The translations under genes and the position numbers were made by a program. Positions 16,227-53,904 of a stretch of DNA of 64,000 nucleotides are shown piece by piece (the stretch's first letter is position 1; every line of letters begins with the position of its first letter). The DNA is from Halapricum desulfuricans. GTDB taxonomy: Archaea; Halobacteriota; Halobacteria; Halobacteriales; Haloarculaceae. The stretch covers positions 1,364,001 through 1,428,000 of the forward strand of contig NZ_CP064787.1 in NCBI RefSeq assembly GCF_017094505.1, written 5' to 3'. The notes beneath the pieces were generated by a model. The model was not told where the DNA came from, searched no databases, and saw only the letters and a program-made list of their open reading frames with translations.

Positions 16227-16613
16227 ATGGCCGAAACGATCGCTGTCTTGCTCGTCGACGAGGACACTGACGTGCTCGAGCTGACACAGACGTTTCTGGA
16301 GCGCGAGGACGACGCCATTTCGGTGACGGCCGAAACGAGCGCGCCGGACGCGCTCGACCGGCTCGAGTCCGAACCGTTCGACTGTGTCGTCAGCGACTAC
16401 TCGATGCCGTCGACGTCCGGAATCGAGTTCCTGCGGGAAGTCCGCGACCGCGTTCCCGGTCTGCCCTTCTTTTTCTTCACTGGAAAGGACCGCGAGGAAA
16501 TCGAAACCGAGGCGGGGGGCGTCCAAATCACCGGCCACGTCCGGAAGGGGACTGGGACCGAGCGATACGGCGAACTCGCCGACGAGATCAGAGCGGCTGT
16601 CGAACGCTCGTAG
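16227..16613 (+). CDS. Response regulator receiver-domain protein
   Basis: A 128-residue stand-alone CheY-like receiver domain without an output domain. The acidic pocket (D11, E12, D13 in VDEDTD), the phospho-accepting D57 in CVVSDYSMP, the Thr of FFFFTGKD and the conserved Lys in VRKGTG are all present, so it should be phosphorylatable. Such single receivers in haloarchaea usually act with the many REC-PAS histidine kinases; one of these is encoded at 46558-47952 but nothing links them directly. It lies upstream of the hyp operon on the same strand, with an independent TATA box between. Confidence 0.92.
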   Translation: MAETIAVLLVDEDTDVLELTQTFLEREDDAISVTAETSAPDALDRLESEPFDCVVSDYSMPSTSGIEFLREVRDRVPGLPFFFFTGKDREEIETEAGGVQITGHVRKGTGTERYGELADEIRAAVERS

Positions 16614-16687: not shown

Positions 16688-16695
16688 TATAAAAG
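16688..16695 (+). promoter_or_regulatory. TATA box of the hyp operon
   Basis: TATAAAAG at 16688-16695 is the clearest TATA element near hypC. Its expected transcription start is about 16720, leaving a leader of roughly 65 bases before the hypC ATG at 16785. The leader contains no obvious gene. Confidence 0.5.
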
Positions 16696-16784: not shown

Positions 16785-17069
16785 ATGTGTTTAGGCATAC
16801 CGGGTCAGATCACGGAGATCGACGGCACAGAGGCCACGGCCGAGTTCTGGGACGTCGAGAAGACAGTGCGAATAGACATCGTCGACGAGGACGTCGAAGT
16901 CGGCGATTACATCCTCAACCACGCGGGGTTCGCGATTCGGAAGATCCCCGACGAGGAAGTCGAGGAGACCATCGAGATCTACGAGTCGTTCCTCGAGGGC
17001 GACGAGGACGAGGCGCTCGAAGAGATCGGCGGCGAACCCGACGAGCGGCTCGGCATCGGGGGTGATTAG
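16785..17069 (+). CDS. hypC: Hydrogenase maturation chaperone HypC
   Basis: A 94-residue HypC/HupF protein that carries the Fe(CN)2CO group with HypD and delivers it to the large subunit of [NiFe] hydrogenase. It starts MCLGIPGQI, with the essential second-position Cys, and has the family's small beta barrel (VGDYILNHAGFAIRKI). The acidic C-terminal extension is haloarchaeal in style. It is the first gene of the hypCDEAB operon; the stop is immediately followed by the hypD ATG. The ATG at 16785 is fixed by the required N-terminal Met-Cys. Confidence 0.97.
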   Translation: MCLGIPGQITEIDGTEATAEFWDVEKTVRIDIVDEDVEVGDYILNHAGFAIRKIPDEEVEETIEIYESFLEGDEDEALEEIGGEPDERLGIGGD

Positions 17070-18185
17070 ATGGCCGTCGAGAGCGGCGAACCGGACCTGC
17101 AATTCCGCGACCCCGAGAAGGCCGAACAGTTGACGGATCGTCTCGAGGCGCTGATGGACGACATCGGCGAGCGCGTGACGATCATGCACGTCTGCGGGAG
17201 CCACGAGCAGGCCATCGCGAAGTACGGCCTGCGGAGTCTCCTGCCCGACGGGCTGACGATCCGGATGGGTCCGGGCTGTCCCGTCTGTGTGACCGACATG
17301 CCCGAGGTCGACGAGGCGGTCGCGCTCGCCGAGGACGGCAAGATCGTCGCGACCTACGGGGACATGCTCCGCGTGCCGGGCACCGAGAAGAGCCTCGACG
17401 ACGCCAAGGCCGACGGGGCGGACGTGCGCGTCGTCTACTCGGCCAGCGAGGCCGCCGAGATCGCCGAGGAAGAACCGGAGCGGGAGGTGGTCTTCTTCGC
17501 GACCGGCTTCGAGACGACAGCGGCCCCGACCGCGGCTGTCCTGACCGCCGATCCGCCGGAGAACTTCTCGATTCTCTCCGCACACAAATACGTCCCGCCG
17601 GCGATGGAGGTCGTCGCCGAACTGCCGGACACGGACGTCGACGGCTTTCTGGCGGCTGGCCACGCCGCGACGATCACCGGCTACGGCCTCTTCGAGGAGT
17701 TCGTCGAGGACTACGAGGTGCCGACCGTCGTCGGCGGGTTCGAGCCCATCGATATCCTGTTTGGCCTGGCGAAACTGCTCGAGTTCATCCGCGACGACGA
17801 GCCCGGGCTGGCCAATGCCTACCAGCGGTGTGTCTCCGAAGAAGGGAACGTCCCCGCCAAAGAGACGATGTGGGACGTCTTCGAGACGACCACCGGGGAG
17901 TGGCGCGGGATCGCACAGATCCCCGAGGCGAACCTCGTCTTGCGCGAGGAATACAGGCAGTACGACGCCCGCGAACGGTTCGACATCGACGTCGACACCG
18001 CCAGTTCCAACCCGCTGACCGAGGAGTGTCTCTGCGGGGAGATCATGGCCGGCAAGGCCGATCCCGACGACTGTGACCTGTTCGGTGAAGAGTGCACGCC
18101 ACAGGACCCCGTCGGAGCCTGTATGGTCTCCAGCGAGGGGCCCTGCAAGATCTGGCTCGAATACGGCGGCCAGCCGGACATCTGA
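17070..18185 (+). CDS. hypD: Hydrogenase formation protein HypD
   Basis: A 371-residue iron-sulfur scaffold on which the Fe(CN)2CO unit of [NiFe] hydrogenase is assembled. The three HypD motifs are intact: HVCGSHEQ near residue 34, GPGCPVCVTD near 67, and the C-terminal cysteine region ECLCGEIMAG, with further cysteines (CDLFGEEC, CMVSSEGPC) that hold the [4Fe-4S] cluster. Length is normal. It directly follows hypC and is followed three bases later by hypE. Confidence 0.98.
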   Translation: MAVESGEPDLQFRDPEKAEQLTDRLEALMDDIGERVTIMHVCGSHEQAIAKYGLRSLLPDGLTIRMGPGCPVCVTDMPEVDEAVALAEDGKIVATYGDMLRVPGTEKSLDDAKADGADVRVVYSASEAAEIAEEEPEREVVFFATGFETTAAPTAAVLTADPPENFSILSAHKYVPPAMEVVAELPDTDVDGFLAAGHAATITGYGLFEEFVEDYEVPTVVGGFEPIDILFGLAKLLEFIRDDEPGLANAYQRCVSEEGNVPAKETMWDVFETTTGEWRGIAQIPEANLVLREEYRQYDARERFDIDVDTASSNPLTEECLCGEIMAGKADPDDCDLFGEECTPQDPVGACMVSSEGPCKIWLEYGGQPDI

Positions 18186-18188
18186 ACC

Positions 18189-19226
18189 ATGAGTGACGAA
18201 CAGGAGGTCATCACGGAGGCCCACGGCGCGGGCAGCGGGCAGATGCGGGAACTGATCGAGGAACTGGCCGTCTCGCGCTTCGAGAGCGACGACGCCGAGA
18301 CGGACGTCCCGCTGGCGGCGCTTGACGACGGCTCGGTCCACCGGCTGGCCAACGGCGGCGGCTCGGTGGTCGTGACCACGGACAGCCACGTCGTCACGCC
18401 GCTTTTCTTCCGGGGCGGTGACATCGGCCGGCTCGCGGTCGCCGGGACGGTCAACGACCTGGCGATGATGGGCGCGACCGAGCCGGTCGCGCTGACCTGC
18501 TCGCTGATCGTCGAGTCGGGGACGCCGGTCGAGACCGTCGAGCGCGTCATGGAGTCGATGCGCGAGACCAGCGAGGAGGCCGGCGCGCCGATCACGACCG
18601 GCGACACGAAGGTGATGGGCAGCGGCGAGATCGACACGCTCGCGATCAACACCACGGGGGTCGGGATCGTCCCGCAGGGCGGACACGTCCCGGACGCCGG
18701 GCTCTCGCCGGGCGACAAATTGATCGTCACCGGGACGGTCGGCGATCACGGCATCTCGCTGCTCTCGGAACGCGAGGGGTTCGACTTCGAGGGCGACCTG
18801 CAGAGCGACGTCGCGCCGGTCAACGACCTCGTGGCGGCCGCGATGGACGCCGGCGAGATCACCGCGATGAAAGACCCCACCCGCGGCGGGCTCGCGACCT
18901 CGCTCAACGAGATGGCGAGCAAAGCTGGCGTCGGTCTCGAAATTGACGAGCGATCGGTCCCCGTCTCGGGGGCAGTCGCCTCGGCCGGAGAGGTGCTCGG
19001 CATCGAACCGCTGAACGTCGCCAACGAGGGCAAAGTCGTGCTGGGTGTCGCGAGCGAGGACGCCGACGCGGTGCTCGAAGCGATCCGGAATCACCCCCAG
19101 GGTGCGGACGCCGCGATCGTCGGCGAGGCGGTCGACGATCACGCCGGCAGGGTCATCCTCGATACCGGATTCGGGAACCGCTATCTGACCGAACCCGAGG
19201 GCGAACAACTCCCGAGGATCTGCTGA
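18189..19226 (+). CDS. hypE: Carbamoyl dehydratase HypE
   Basis: A 345-residue AIR-synthase-like (PurM) enzyme that dehydrates a carbamoyl group on its C-terminal cysteine to thiocyanate, the cyanide source for hydrogenase iron. The protein ends in PRIC, the required C-terminal Cys. ATP-binding pieces FFRGGDIGRLAVAGTVNDLAMMGA and MKDPTRGGLATSLNEMA are typical. It needs a HypF carbamoyltransferase partner, and no hypF lies in this window. It sits between hypD and hypA in the operon. Confidence 0.98.
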   Translation: MSDEQEVITEAHGAGSGQMRELIEELAVSRFESDDAETDVPLAALDDGSVHRLANGGGSVVVTTDSHVVTPLFFRGGDIGRLAVAGTVNDLAMMGATEPVALTCSLIVESGTPVETVERVMESMRETSEEAGAPITTGDTKVMGSGEIDTLAINTTGVGIVPQGGHVPDAGLSPGDKLIVTGTVGDHGISLLSEREGFDFEGDLQSDVAPVNDLVAAAMDAGEITAMKDPTRGGLATSLNEMASKAGVGLEIDERSVPVSGAVASAGEVLGIEPLNVANEGKVVLGVASEDADAVLEAIRNHPQGADAAIVGEAVDDHAGRVILDTGFGNRYLTEPEGEQLPRIC

Positions 19227-19227
19227 C

Positions 19228-19656
19228 ATGCACGAGTTCTCGATCGCCGCACAGATCCTCGACACCGCCCGCGAACACGCCGAAGAGGAAGGAGCCAGTC
19301 ACGTTACGCGCCTGGAAATCGAGGTCGGGGAGGCCAGCCACGTCAACCCCCGTCAACTAGAAACCTGCATGGACGCAGCCAAGACCGATACGATCGCGGC
19401 CCAGGCGACGGTCGAAATCGAGACGGCCGCACCCTACGCCGAGTGTGCGTGTGGCTGGAGCGGCGAACCCGATGTCGCGGAGAACGCGCTGGTGTACGCG
19501 CCGGACCTGACCTGCCCGTCGTGTGGCGAGCGCATCGATCTCACTGGCGGCGACAGCTGCCGGCTGATGAGTCTGACTGTCAGCGACGAGCCGCCGACTG
19601 ACGACGTATCGGACACTGATGAACCCGACGAGCACACGCCGAGTGAACCAGTATGA
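19228..19656 (+). CDS. hypA: Hydrogenase nickel-insertion protein HypA
   Basis: A 142-residue nickel metallochaperone. The N terminus MHEFSIA provides the nickel ligands (Met1-His2-Glu3). The zinc site is formed by ECACG near residue 72 and CPSCG near 95. A 25-residue acidic tail (EPPTDDVSDTDEPDEHTP) extends beyond the usual family end. It passes nickel with HypB to hydrogenase. It starts two bases after the hypE stop, and its own stop overlaps the hypB start by four bases. Confidence 0.97.
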   Translation: MHEFSIAAQILDTAREHAEEEGASHVTRLEIEVGEASHVNPRQLETCMDAAKTDTIAAQATVEIETAAPYAECACGWSGEPDVAENALVYAPDLTCPSCGERIDLTGGDSCRLMSLTVSDEPPTDDVSDTDEPDEHTPSEPV

Positions 19657-20528
19657 CGTACAACTACATTCACGACAATCCACTGCAGCACGGTATCGGA
19701 CACATCGTCGATCGACTGCTCGACGCTGGCCGAAACGTTCCGATCGGCCCGGCACGAGCCCACCGGTTCGGCCACGGCGATCACGACCACGACGGCGACG
19801 ACGTCGAGGCCGATATCCTCGAACAGTTCGCCCAACAGGCCGACGATCTCCACGAGCGGGTCGTCCACGAGCACGGAATCTTCGTCGCGGAGTTTCTGGG
19901 CGCGACCGGCGCGGGCAAGACCCGCCTGATCGAGCGACTGATCGAGCGCGCGCCGGAAGACGAGCGGATCGGTGTCATCGTCGGCGACGTCGCCGGCGAG
20001 GACGACGCGACGCGGTTCCGCGAACGCGGAGCCGAGGTCGCCAACGTCAACACCGGAAAGGAGTGTCATCTCGATCCGGAGTTCGTCGAGCGCGGCCTCT
20101 CGGAACTCGACCTCGACGAGCTCGATACGCTCTATATCGAGAACGTCGGGAACATGGTCTGTCCGGCGGACTTCCCGCTGGGAGCGCAGGCCCGAGTTCT
20201 GGTCGTCTCGACGACTGAAGGCGACGACGTGGTGCGCAAACACCCGCTACTCTTCCAGGCATGTGACGCGACCGTCATCAACAAGACCGATATCGCAGAC
20301 GCGGTCGGGTCGGACCTGGATCTGATGGAGTCGGACGTCAGGGACATCGTCCCCGGCATGGACGTCTTCCGAACCGACGCCGAACACGGCGAGGGTATCG
20401 AAGACCTCGCCGCATTCCTCGACGAACGCGGCCACGCACACGCCCACGATCACGAGGCATACGTGAGCAAGACAGCGAGTCACGCGCACGTCCACGACGA
20501 CCACGGACACGCGTCCGAACACGACTAG
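19653..20528 (+). CDS. hypB: Hydrogenase nickel GTPase HypB
   Basis: A 291-residue SIMIBI GTPase that drives nickel insertion. The P-loop GATGAGKT lies near residues 83-90, with VGDVAGEDDA, the metal-site NTGKECHLD, NVGNMVCPADF and NKTDIAD (guanine recognition) in order. Both ends are His/Asp-rich: HRFGHGDHDHDGDD near residues 38-51, and a C-terminal tail with HAHAHDHE and HAHVHDDHGH, consistent with nickel storage. This is the last gene of the hyp operon. HypB can also serve urease or Ni-dependent proteins in some organisms, but hypCDE alongside points to hydrogenase. Confidence 0.97.
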   Translation: MTYNYIHDNPLQHGIGHIVDRLLDAGRNVPIGPARAHRFGHGDHDHDGDDVEADILEQFAQQADDLHERVVHEHGIFVAEFLGATGAGKTRLIERLIERAPEDERIGVIVGDVAGEDDATRFRERGAEVANVNTGKECHLDPEFVERGLSELDLDELDTLYIENVGNMVCPADFPLGAQARVLVVSTTEGDDVVRKHPLLFQACDATVINKTDIADAVGSDLDLMESDVRDIVPGMDVFRTDAEHGEGIEDLAAFLDERGHAHAHDHEAYVSKTASHAHVHDDHGHASEHD

Positions 20529-20715: not shown

Positions 20716-20949
20716 TCACGAGTCTCGGTAGTACAGGACGTCCCCGAGAAGCGACGCCAGCCGCGCGTCATCGCCGGGCGAGACCGCCAGAAACGGTCGA
20801 TCGACCGGGCCGAAGACGTCGACGACCCGGCCGACCGTCTCGAGATTTTCGTCCAGCAGTGGCGTCCCGATCTCCGGGTGGTCGTCGTCGGGACAGCGCA
20901 CGACGGCGACGTTCTGAGCGACGTCTTCGACGGTGCCGGCGCGCTGCAT
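20716..20949 (-). CDS. gar1: H/ACA ribonucleoprotein component Gar1
   Basis: A 77-residue beta-barrel protein. Gar1 binds Cbf5 in H/ACA small RNPs and helps rRNA pseudouridylation. The sequence follows the archaeal Gar1 pattern: [47 protein letters not shown] and YLAVSPG-like ending. Its ATG overlaps the stop of srp19 by one base, so the two form a tight operon. The gar1-srp19 pairing is widely seen in haloarchaea. Confidence 0.93.
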   Translation of the reverse strand: MQRAGTVEDVAQNVAVVRCPDDDHPEIGTPLLDENLETVGRVVDVFGPVDRPFLAVSPGDDARLASLLGDVLYYRDS

Positions 20950-21227
20950 TATTCGCGCAGGACCTGCACGTAGGCCGCGACGGCGCCCAGCAGGTCGCTT
21001 TTGGTCGCGTCGTCGGCGTTCGTGACGACGACTCGCCCGCGCGCCTCGTACTCGCGGGGATAGGTCTTCTCGCGCTCGATCCGGGCGTCGTATCCCACCT
21101 GCTGGACGGCCTCGGCGATCTCCTCGACCGTTGGGTCCGGGACGGCCAGCTCCTCCGGGACCCGTCGCCCCTCGCTGCGGGTCAACTCCGCGTCGAGGGC
21201 CGCGGGCCAGATGACGTTCTCGACCAT
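20949..21227 (-). CDS. srp19: Signal recognition particle protein SRP19
   Basis: A 92-residue protein that binds 7S RNA and helps SRP54 load. The start [29 protein letters not shown] is the archaeal SRP19 N terminus (span about residues 1-29), with [35 protein letters not shown] following. I use the ATG at 21227; an upstream frame extension to 21308 encodes unlikely Pro/Arg-rich sequence. It is translated first and overlaps gar1 by one base. The gene's promoter lies in the region shared with the divergent Pcm-like gene. Confidence 0.94.
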
Positions 21228-21394
21228 ATCACCGGGTGGGCGGGCCGGACGTAAACGCCTTACTGGTCGGACGAGCGGTGGTGATCCGCTCTCGCTCGAA
21301 GTCGACATCGGTCTCAGAGTCGATCCGCCGGTCGCTCATCCGGACCGACCTCGCCTAGCGCGTCATTCATTACGACGCGGCCGAAAGGCCGGGT

Positions 21395-51224: not shown

Positions 51225-51899
51225 ATGGCACACATCCACCTTCCGGAGGGCTCGATACCGCTGTGGGCGGTCGGCCTGTGGTCGGCGCTCGCGGTGGCCG
51301 TCCTCGCGGTCGCGGTGTATCGGCTCCGTCGTGACGGGCTCGACGCCAGACACGTCGCGCTCGGCGGGATGGTCGCCGCGGCGAGTTTCGCGGTCTTCCA
51401 GATCAACGTTCCCGTGTTGGGCGGCGTTCACCTGTCGCTGAGCGCGCTCGTCGGCATCCTCGTCGGCCCGGCGCTGGGCGCGATCGTGATGTTCGTGGTG
51501 AACGTCCTCTCGGCGATGCTCGGCCACGGCGCGTGGGGCTTTCTGGGCGCGAACACGCTCGTCAGCGTCGTCGAGGTCGCGGGCGCGTACTACGTCTTCC
51601 AGTTGCTTCGTGGCTCCGACTGGAGTCACTTCCCGGCGGCGACGCTGGCGACGATCGGCGGACTCGCGGCCGGTTCAGTCCTGATGGGGGCGATCCCGAT
51701 GGTGAGCGGGATCACCGGCGTCGAGATCAGCGGGCTCGACCTGGGGATCTACATGCTCGCGCTGGTCGCGCTCAACCTCGCCGTCGCCGTCGTCGAGGGC
51801 GTCGTTACCGGCTCGGTCGTCTCCTACATCGCCTCGATCCGTCCCGACCTGCTCGGTGATCGAACGCCCACCGCTGGCCCGGAGGTGACCAGCACGTGA
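51225..51899 (+). CDS. cbiM: Energy-coupling-factor metal permease CbiM/NikM
   Basis: A 224-residue membrane protein with about six to seven membrane segments that forms the substrate-binding S component of a group I ECF transporter for Co2+ or Ni2+. The N terminus MAHIHLPEGSIPL corresponds to the MHI metal-binding start of the family. Further segments include LSLSALVGILVGPALGAIVMFVVNVLSAMLGHGAWGFLGANTL (span near 73-115). The hypCDEAB operon in the same window makes nickel the more likely ion. Its stop overlaps the GTG of the next gene. Confidence 0.93.
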   Translation: MAHIHLPEGSIPLWAVGLWSALAVAVLAVAVYRLRRDGLDARHVALGGMVAAASFAVFQINVPVLGGVHLSLSALVGILVGPALGAIVMFVVNVLSAMLGHGAWGFLGANTLVSVVEVAGAYYVFQLLRGSDWSHFPAATLATIGGLAAGSVLMGAIPMVSGITGVEISGLDLGIYMLALVALNLAVAVVEGVVTGSVVSYIASIRPDLLGDRTPTAGPEVTST

Positions 51900-52210
51900 A
51901 ACGAACCAATCAGTACCTGCTCACGGGCGGTGTAGTCGCGGTCGCGCTGGCCGTCGGATATCTGGGCTTTCGCGCCAGCGGCGGCGCGGTCCCGTGGGGC
52001 AAGCGCTTCGCGGCGGTCGTCTCGGGCGGCGCGTCCGGCGGCGACGGGATCTTCCAGTTCGGCCGCGGCGGCCTCGGCGGGTTCGTTCTTGCCGGCCCGC
52101 TCCGGGACAGCGTCGGCCCCTTCGTTGCGATTGTCACCCTGCTGGTCGTCGGTAGCGCCGGGCTGTACTGGTACAGCAAGCGCACTGACGAGCCGGGAGG
52201 GCACAACTAG
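51896..52210 (+). CDS. CbiN/PDGLE-type accessory membrane protein of the metal transporter
   Basis: A 104-residue protein with two membrane segments (about 8-26, YLLTGGVVAVALAVGYLGF, and 75-95, DSVGPFVAIVTLLVVGSAGLYWY) joined by a Gly-rich loop. This matches the CbiN/NikN-type small subunit that helps CbiM load metal. The GTG at 51896 overlaps the cbiM stop. The gene directly abuts the cbiQ ATG. Whether it should be called NikN depends on the ion carried. Confidence 0.85.
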   Translation: MKRTNQYLLTGGVVAVALAVGYLGFRASGGAVPWGKRFAAVVSGGASGGDGIFQFGRGGLGGFVLAGPLRDSVGPFVAIVTLLVVGSAGLYWYSKRTDEPGGHN

Positions 52211-53011
52211 ATGAGCGGACTGTCGAGTCACGTCCCCGATCCGCGGCTGCTGACTACCTACGCCGAACACGAGGACAGTCCATTTCACCGGGTCAACGCC
52301 TGGACGAAGGTGGCCGTGCTCGCGTTGCTGGTCGTCGCCGTCACGATCGCGGACGGGCTGGCGGCGGTCTGGGGCCTGTACATAGCCGTCCTCGTCGGCT
52401 ACGCCTACGCCGGGCTCCCGGTCCGGAAACTCCTGGCGTGGTATACGCTGCCAGTGATCTTCGTGGCGGCGATCGCCGGGCCGCTGGCGTTCGGCATCGG
52501 TGGCACGCCGATGGTCGAACTCGGCCCCGTCTCGATCACCTGGGAGGGGGCCGCGACCTTCGTGACCCTGCTCGGTCGAGGACTGACGGTCGTGACCTAC
52601 TCGCTTGCGGTCTGGATGTCCACGCCCTACGCCTCGATCGCACACGTCCTCGGGCGGTCGCTGCCGTCGCCGATCGACCAGGTCGCGCTGTTTGCCTACC
52701 GGTTCACGTTCGTCATCCTCGAGGTCGTCGAGGACCTGCTCGCGGGGATTCACGCCCGCGGCGGCCGGATCCAGTCTGACTTCTGGGAGAACCGGTCGCT
52801 GTACGGGCGGATCTTCGGTCACACGTTCATCCGGTCGATCGAGCGGTCCGAGGCGCTGTTGAAATCGATGAACGCCCGCGGGTATCAGGGCGATCTCGCG
52901 GTGTACGGCCACGTCGGTCGACCGCCGGCCCGCGAGTTGCTCGCGGTCGGCGCGTTCGCGCTGGGGATCGTCGTCTACGCTGTGACAGTCGCCTATGGAG
53001 TGATGCCATGA
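52211..53011 (+). CDS. cbiQ: ECF transporter transmembrane component CbiQ
   Basis: A 266-residue T component of the ECF transporter, with about five membrane segments and the two short cytoplasmic motifs that touch the ATPase (MNARGYQGD near residues 221-229, with IERSEALLKSMNARG around it). It couples ATP hydrolysis by CbiO to CbiM. The gene follows the small subunit without a gap and overlaps cbiO by four bases. Length is normal. Confidence 0.94.
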   Translation: MSGLSSHVPDPRLLTTYAEHEDSPFHRVNAWTKVAVLALLVVAVTIADGLAAVWGLYIAVLVGYAYAGLPVRKLLAWYTLPVIFVAAIAGPLAFGIGGTPMVELGPVSITWEGAATFVTLLGRGLTVVTYSLAVWMSTPYASIAHVLGRSLPSPIDQVALFAYRFTFVILEVVEDLLAGIHARGGRIQSDFWENRSLYGRIFGHTFIRSIERSEALLKSMNARGYQGDLAVYGHVGRPPARELLAVGAFALGIVVYAVTVAYGVMP

Positions 53012-53904
53012 GCCACGACACCAATACAACAGACTACGGCAGCGAGTGTACGCACAAACATCCGATGGAGTTCGACGAGGAGCCGCTTGTCGCGCTTCAC
53101 TGTCTGTCACACACCTACCCGGACGGGACGCGCAGCGTCCACGACGTGAGTTTCGCGGTGTTCGAAGACGAGACCGTCGGGTTGATCGGCGCGAACGGCG
53201 CGGGCAAGTCGACGCTGATGGAACACCTCAACGGCTTGCTCGAGGTTCAGGCGGGCGAGCTCAGGGTCGCCGGCGAGTTGATCACCGACGAGAACGTCGA
53301 ACTCGCCCGCCAGGAGGTCGGGTTCGTCTTCCAGGACGCGGACGCCCAGATCGTCGCGCCGACGGTCCTCGACGACGTGATGTTCGGGCCGCTGAACTAC
53401 GGTGCGAGCCGTGAAGAGGCGCGCGAACGCGCACACGAAGCCCTCGAACGGCTCGACGCCGGGCATCTCGTCGACCGCGTCCCCCATCACCTCAGCGGCG
53501 GCGAGAAGCGGCTGGTCGCGATCGCGGGCGTCCTCGCGATGGACCCGAGCGTGATCGTCATGGACGAACCCCTGGCCGGGCTGGATCCGGCCCGCGAGCG
53601 GCGCGTCCGGGAGGTCATCGAGGAGTTGCAGGCCGACGGAATCAGCCTCGTCGTGGCGACCCATGACGTCGACTTCGCGGCCGCGGTCGCCGATCGACTC
53701 GTCGCGATGACCGACGGCGACATCGTCGGCGACGGACCGCCCGAAGAGATCTTCTACGACGACGCGCTGCTTCAGCGCGCGAACCTCGAGCCGCCGACGG
53801 CCGTCCGGATGGCGCGGGAACTGGACGTCGAAGAAGCCGATCCCGTCACCGAGGACGAACTCGTGGCGGCGCTTTCCCGACGACAGGCGGTTCCGGGCCC
53901 GTGA
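53008..53904 (+). CDS. cbiO: ECF transporter ATPase CbiO
   Basis: A 298-residue ABC ATPase of the metal ECF system. Walker A is IGANGAGKSTLMEHLNG, the signature is HLSGGEKRLVAIAG and Walker B VIVMDEPLAGLDP, followed by the switch His in VVATHDVDFAA. It has an N-terminal extension (about 25 residues) before the usual start of the ATPase fold. It ends the cbiMNQO operon. Only one ATPase gene is present, so it probably works as a homodimer. Confidence 0.95.
   Translation: MSHDTNTTDYGSECTHKHPMEFDEEPLVALHCLSHTYPDGTRSVHDVSFAVFEDETVGLIGANGAGKSTLMEHLNGLLEVQAGELRVAGELITDENVELARQEVGFVFQDADAQIVAPTVLDDVMFGPLNYGASREEARERAHEALERLDAGHLVDRVPHHLSGGEKRLVAIAGVLAMDPSVIVMDEPLAGLDPARERRVREVIEELQADGISLVVATHDVDFAAAVADRLVAMTDGDIVGDGPPEEIFYDDALLQRANLEPPTAVRMARELDVEEADPVTEDELVAALSRRQAVPGP

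Follow-up and report, generated by a model that had tools for sequence, protein, structure and literature searches.

Group-1 hydrogenases of haloarchaea have already been published, in passages of PMC5437934 and of PMC6176080, the latter also describing adjacent hyp genes and classing the Natrarchaeobaculum type as group 1a. In the haloarchaeal hydABC-hydD-hyp module (Sorokin et al. 2018, excerpts of PMC6176080), as carried by Natrarchaeobaculum plasmid pAArc1-02, the hyp genes follow in the order CDEAB(F) directly after the genes for the small subunit (SSU), the large subunit (LSU), (cytochrome b) and a protease. Another described system, the electron-bifurcating NiFe-HydABCSL hydrogenase (NiFe-Bfu) of Acetomicrobium mobile (PDB 7t2r), is presented in sections of PMC8880783 and PMC9304861, and Halorhabdus represents it among archaea in the latter. 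Here, we analyzed a hypCDEAB operon located in a 64-kb stretch of haloarchaeal DNA (hereafter, the window; G000:C1:1364001-1428000), whose genome (G000) is a single contig of 2,940,338 bases. A preliminary description of the window had found the operon without hypF or hydrogenase genes and suggested that the rest of the system lies elsewhere or that a different target protein is matured. Our findings make it very probable that hypCDEAB is a general [NiFe]-cofactor maturation operon that serves three [NiFe] hydrogenases encoded at other sites of the same chromosome, and that it represents a separated part of the compact haloarchaeal module.

The maturation partners lie elsewhere on the chromosome

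The operon at 16785-20528 is complete, as first described, with five intact + strand frames that match their families (Table 1); hypA and hypB share a 4-base overlap, and the remaining intergenic gaps span 0-3 bases. The catalytic motifs reported earlier were all seen, and the set for HypABCDEF maturation comprises HypC Met-Cys, HypD CGSHE/GPGCPVC, HypE PRxC (here PRIC), HypB P-loop and HypA MHE, so that the operon looks functional. Moreover, the ratio of nonsynonymous to synonymous substitution rates (dN/dS) relative to the sister genome G109 was low for HypC (0.046), HypD (0.053), HypE (0.082), HypA (0.206) and HypB (0.084), indicating that the hyp genes are under purifying selection.

Neither hypF nor a PF00374 large subunit matched inside the window; every match in G000 fell outside it, so the earlier statement that hypF and hydrogenase genes are missing holds for the window but not for the genome as a whole. 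A single full-length hypF match was located at G000:C1:1695046-1697325, approximately 311 kb from hypB (TIGR00143, 803.5 bits over positions 1-740 of 741), with the acylphosphatase domain, two zinc fingers, the YrdC domain and both Kae1-like domains present. PF00374 matched three genes, in six stretches altogether, at 1294.7-1296.0, 168.1-169.4 and 158.7-159.8 kb, and both CxxC motifs, together with the C-terminal tail beyond the second CxxC, are kept in all three large subunits. One of three HycI-family proteases sits beside each large subunit. The hydrogenases, each clustered with a small subunit, are 85 kb to 1.2 Mb from the hyp operon on the same chromosome, in which HypD occurs as a single copy. 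The genome-wide search proposed in the preliminary description thus recovered hypF, the cysteine motifs and the proteases, and placed the rest of the system elsewhere, as had been anticipated; a genome with neither hydrogenase nor hypF, the outcome named there as contradicting a functional hydrogenase pathway, is not what we found.

We then considered 195 genomes of the order, searched for PF00374, HypD (PF01924) and the HypF zinc finger (PF07503). Each family matched 18 genomes, in line with the claim that most haloarchaea lack the system, and the 18 were identical for all three (chance 1/C(195,18), ~9e-26, phylogeny ignored); in this sample, therefore, Hyp and hydrogenase matches never occur one without the other. 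We read the hyp surroundings in all 18 genomes and in the Natrarchaeobaculum plasmid. In clustered genomes, the order SSU, LSU, (cytochrome b), protease, hypC, D, E, A, B, F mostly forms one compact block. In ten of these genomes the nearest large subunit is ~1-2.5 kb from hypD, and in G193 and G127 it is 10 and 23 kb away, respectively. The contig ends after hypA at the clustered locus of G185, the hyp stretches of G127 and G193 showed neither a HypA nor a HypB match, and the hyp loci of G182 and G010 showed none to cytochrome b. In the other six genomes, the large subunit closest to hypD is 42 kb or more away (85 kb in G000, 407 in G109, 132 in G003, 94 in G075, 42 in G119 and 101 in G143), and all six carry a NiFe-Bfu-type large subunit. 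The HydABC genes adjoining this subunit were read in G000, G109, G003 and loci L067-L069, and HydA in G075; G119 and G143 were counted as NiFe-Bfu-type on the large subunit alone. In G075, G119 and G143, hypF is located ~5-10 kb from hypD. Together, the co-occurrence of hydrogenase and Hyp and the clustered versus detached gene orders suggest that the operon in the window is an ordinary haloarchaeal hyp module unlinked from its structural genes.

Comparison with the Natrarchaeobaculum module is consistent with this idea. The hyp order C-D-E-A-B is identical, HypD and HypC are 75% and 83% identical, respectively, and G000 likewise has a group-1 hydrogenase with a cytochrome b and a protease. 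Unlike in that module, 85 kb separate hypCDEAB of G000 from the group-1 operon, hypF is on the other side of the hyp operon, and two extra hydrogenases are present.

A HypD tree (51 rows: 19 haloarchaeal, 27 other archaeal and 5 bacterial; midpoint root) was built after a filter for stops or short stretches removed 3 of 30 archaeal rows. All 19 haloarchaeal HypD fell into one clade (support 100/100), within which the six detached HypD formed a single clade (97/93). The proposed phylogenetic comparison thus placed the window's HypD firmly among haloarchaeal ones, whereas the sister of the haloarchaeal clade, bacteria or other archaea, was not resolved in this 51-row, midpoint-rooted tree with flagged long branches. 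G067 and G182, which belong to the same family as G000 and have clustered hyp genes, were placed away from the detached clade, a position that would fit exchange among haloarchaea, as judged from the tree.

Three hydrogenases are candidate clients

Cluster A (Table 1) is a predicted membrane-bound group-1 uptake hydrogenase. Its small subunit carries an NiFe_hyd_SSU_C domain and a stretch resembling a twin-arginine translocation (Tat) signal, RRNFLK (read by eye), and is accompanied by the large subunit, a cytochrome b561-type subunit and a protease, the full set found in group-1 [NiFe] uptake enzymes. The large subunit is 75% identical to its Natrarchaeobaculum counterpart. The sister genome G109 has two group-1-type large subunits (G109:C1:944822-945859 and 988193-989227).

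Cluster B resembles the Pyrococcus-type group-3b sulfhydrogenase (HydBGDA / ShyABCD) in having four subunits and a protease. Its NCBIfam matches (ShyA 258, HydD 161, HydG 223 and ShyB 188 bits) are all below the equivalog cut-offs, and, unlike in the Pyrococcus type, the gamma subunit scores best against the model of a related subfamily, PRK08345 (256 bits).

Cluster C is predicted to be a close relative of NiFe-Bfu, and electron bifurcation is likewise predicted. It shares the HydC-HydB-HydA-HydS-HydL gene set with the A. mobile enzyme as depicted in parts of PMC8880783 and PMC9304861, and its group-3 HydL is nearest to A. mobile HydL among solved structures (7t2r_D, 541.9 bits, nearly full length), followed by the NAD-reducing hydrogenase 5xf9_D (448.8 bits) and then Mvh (419.1). 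HydA also has its best PDB match in this complex (7t2r_A, 285.2 bits; next 173.9), whereas HydB is slightly nearer to the FeFe-type HydB 7q4v_B (730.5) than to 7t2r_B (712.3). A passage of PMC8880783 gives the B2-cluster ligands of A. mobile HydB as Cys438, Cys/Thr476, His525, Cys531 and Cys536; HydB of G000 aligns Cys, Thr, His, Cys and Cys at these positions, with Thr at the Cys/Thr position, and two C-terminal [4Fe-4S] motifs are present. HydL of G000 is 93.4% identical to that of Halapricum hydrolyticum versus ~81% to those of two Halorhabdus species, while HydL of G075, G119 and G143 shares 91-94% identity with those of two named Halorhabdus species; from these identities we infer that G000 is Halapricum-like and that the latter three genomes are Halorhabdus-like. 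In a phylum survey of 294 genomes, 80 had an A1 match at E <= 1e-30, and among the best 20 phylum loci (flanks ~1.5 kb), HydA stands beside small and large subunits only in three loci of the family of G000. At L015:1926-3368, a PAS-domain sensor histidine kinase, a possible regulator, lies directly downstream of the protease of a HydABCSL-type operon. The link between detached hyp genes and NiFe-Bfu-bearing genomes is a new addition, as is the extension of NiFe-Bfu to a Halapricum-like genome.

A group-4 cluster resembling the membrane-bound hydrogenase (MBH) was observed in relatives, namely Halapricum hydrolyticum, three Halorhabdus-like genomes and G003 (L067:14986-18203, + strand, with the protease at 18593-19084, - strand; L153:4392-11440; G119, G075 and G003). 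It comprises a small subunit, NuoC-, NuoD/large-, NuoH-, NuoJ- and NuoK-like subunits, an antiporter-like subunit and a HycI protease, and its large subunit has intact CGIC and DPCISC motifs and its best PDB match in Pyrococcus MBH 6cfw_L (317 bits). No group-4 hydrogenase was detected in G000 or G109, where only a 35% NuoD-type match appeared. A literature search found nothing clearly on haloarchaeal energy-converting hydrogenases.

Table 1 Features of the window (upper rows, window positions) and the three hydrogenase clusters of G000 (lower rows, kb of the contig). aa, amino acids.
Feature	Position	Strand	Description
Candidate operon promoter	16688-16694	+	TATA-box-like TATAAAA, ~90 bases before hypC; purine-rich stretch just upstream; read by eye
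hypC	16785-17069	+	94 aa; MCLGIPGQ at N-terminus; TIGR00074 (NCBIfam) 70.2 bits (cut-off 48)
hypD	17070-18185	+	371 aa; CGSHE, GPGCPVC, C-terminal cysteines; TIGR00075 433.8 bits (cut-off 192.8); PF01924 447.5 bits
hypE	18189-19226	+	345 aa; PRIC at C-terminus; TIGR02124 385.1 bits (cut-off 251.6)
hypA	19228-19656	+	142 aa; MHE start; zinc-site cysteines C73-x-C75, C96-xx-C99; PF01155 84 bits (cut-off 28.9)
hypB	19653-20528	+	291 aa; P-loop GATGAGKT; His-rich N and C ends; TIGR00073 235.3 bits (cut-off 121.2)
CbiM/NikM-like	51225-51899	+	Energy-coupling factor (ECF)-type metal transporter
Small N-like protein	51896-52210	+	ECF-type metal transporter
CbiQ	52211-53011	+	ECF-type metal transporter
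CbiO	53008-53904	+	ECF-type metal transporter
Cluster B	158-163 kb		Protease, alpha, delta, gamma and beta subunits; group-3b-like sulfhydrogenase
Cluster C	163-170 kb	divergent from cluster B	HydC 191 aa, HydB 627 aa, HydA 625 aa, HydS 188 aa, HydL 472 aa, protease
Cluster A	1293-1297.5 kb		Small subunit, large subunit, cytochrome b561-type subunit, protease (Pfam)

Genes around the operon

Upstream of the hyp operon is a gene for a response-regulator receiver domain protein (window 16227-16613), and downstream, on the opposite strand, are the Gar1 and SRP19 genes (window 20716-21308). A complete CbiM-N-like-Q-O transporter sits 31 kb downstream of hypB; a CbiM match is present in Haloferax volcanii too. 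The first zinc pair of HypA usually has the form C-x-x-C; it is C-x-C-G-W in 17/17 aligned haloarchaeal HypA, including that of the window. Elsewhere in the genome, four molybdopterin oxidoreductases (open frames of 802-863 aa) occur at G000:C1 97, 379, 395 and 571 kb and are candidates for sulfur or dimethyl sulfoxide respiration, as electron sinks.

Alternative explanations

Gene content, motifs, co-occurrence and gene order are apparent at the sequence level; that the three hydrogenases are made and active, with one Hyp set serving all of them, is what we infer from these, and a Hyp operon serving several hydrogenases is the most likely arrangement. The operon might instead serve one hydrogenase only, for example the group-1 enzyme, the other two being inactive. 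Of the 12 clustered genomes, 10 do have hypD no more than 2.5 kb from a large subunit best matched by the group-1 query from G000, although the identity of these ten subunits to the G000 enzyme, 54-71% in nine of them, is only 33% in G010. Yet G003, G075 and G119 carry hyp genes while their PF00374 matches are only of the group-3 and group-4 kinds, so that hyp in these genomes must serve such enzymes, and all three large subunits of G000 retain their motifs, tails and proteases. We consider restriction to a single client very unlikely.

To our knowledge, the only established target of the Fe(CN)2CO made by HypC, D, E and F is the [NiFe] hydrogenases. Maturation of a non-hydrogenase target, such as HypAB-mediated nickel delivery to urease, could draw on the statement, in a passage of PMC12134894, that HypB-type GTPases serve ureases as well; nevertheless, three [NiFe] hydrogenases are present here, HypD or HypF occurs without a large subunit in 0/195 genomes, and this explanation is very improbable. 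The different target protein suggested earlier is unneeded given hypF and three hydrogenases with HycI-family proteases. That the operon is a relic decaying after hydrogenase loss, as a window without hydrogenase and hyp genes detached from structural genes might suggest, is scarcely credible against five open frames, intact motifs, dN/dS of 0.05-0.21 and the presence of intact hydrogenases and hypF. We accordingly rejected the view of the operon as orphaned or decaying, and likewise that of a target other than a hydrogenase, given hypF and three intact hydrogenases on the same chromosome.

Several points nevertheless weigh against a general maturation operon with three clients. HypA falls below its NCBIfam equivalog cut-off (77.9 versus 88.1 bits), a curated score threshold and no biological feature; the dN/dS values come from one genome pair (G000/G109); and the finer haloarchaeal branching of the HypD tree is weak in places, with long branches flagged. 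Furthermore, the joint presence of Hyp and hydrogenases across genomes is no proof that all three enzymes are served by a single Hyp set, and the ECF-type transporter is a possible nickel supply for which nickel and cobalt cannot be told apart as substrate.

A single Hyp set probably serving several hydrogenases

The order of the Hyp maturation steps is established pathway knowledge. Under the favored explanation, a general operon with three hydrogenase clients, HypF would carbamoylate the C-terminal cysteine of HypE, HypE would make cyanide, HypC-HypD would assemble Fe(CN)2CO and HypA-HypB would add nickel, after which the large subunit of each hydrogenase would be trimmed by its own HycI-family protease. 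The hypCDEAB genes very probably split from the structural genes of the hydABC-protease-hypCDEABF module in the lineage with several hydrogenases.

More tentatively, and with rather more doubt than conviction, we propose a three-way hydrogen economy on the single detached Hyp set, in which an exported group-1 enzyme would take up hydrogen, a group-3b enzyme would be linked to NAD(P)H, and a confurcating NiFe-Bfu would make H2 from reduced ferredoxin and NADH when sugar is fermented in saturated salt; hyp would have become unlinked as the lineage gained further hydrogenases. Our literature search, with subscription journals mostly outside its coverage, found no paper treating Halapricum hydrogenases.

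Collectively, these findings remove the apparent paradox of the window and indicate that the detached arrangement is systematic, occurring in 6 NiFe-Bfu-type genomes of the 18 with [NiFe] hydrogenase. The sequence thereby predicts that a haloarchaeon with a single-contig genome uses [NiFe] hydrogenases of three kinds, one of them a putative electron bifurcator, and this genome makes ferredoxin re-oxidation in a salt-in fermenter testable.

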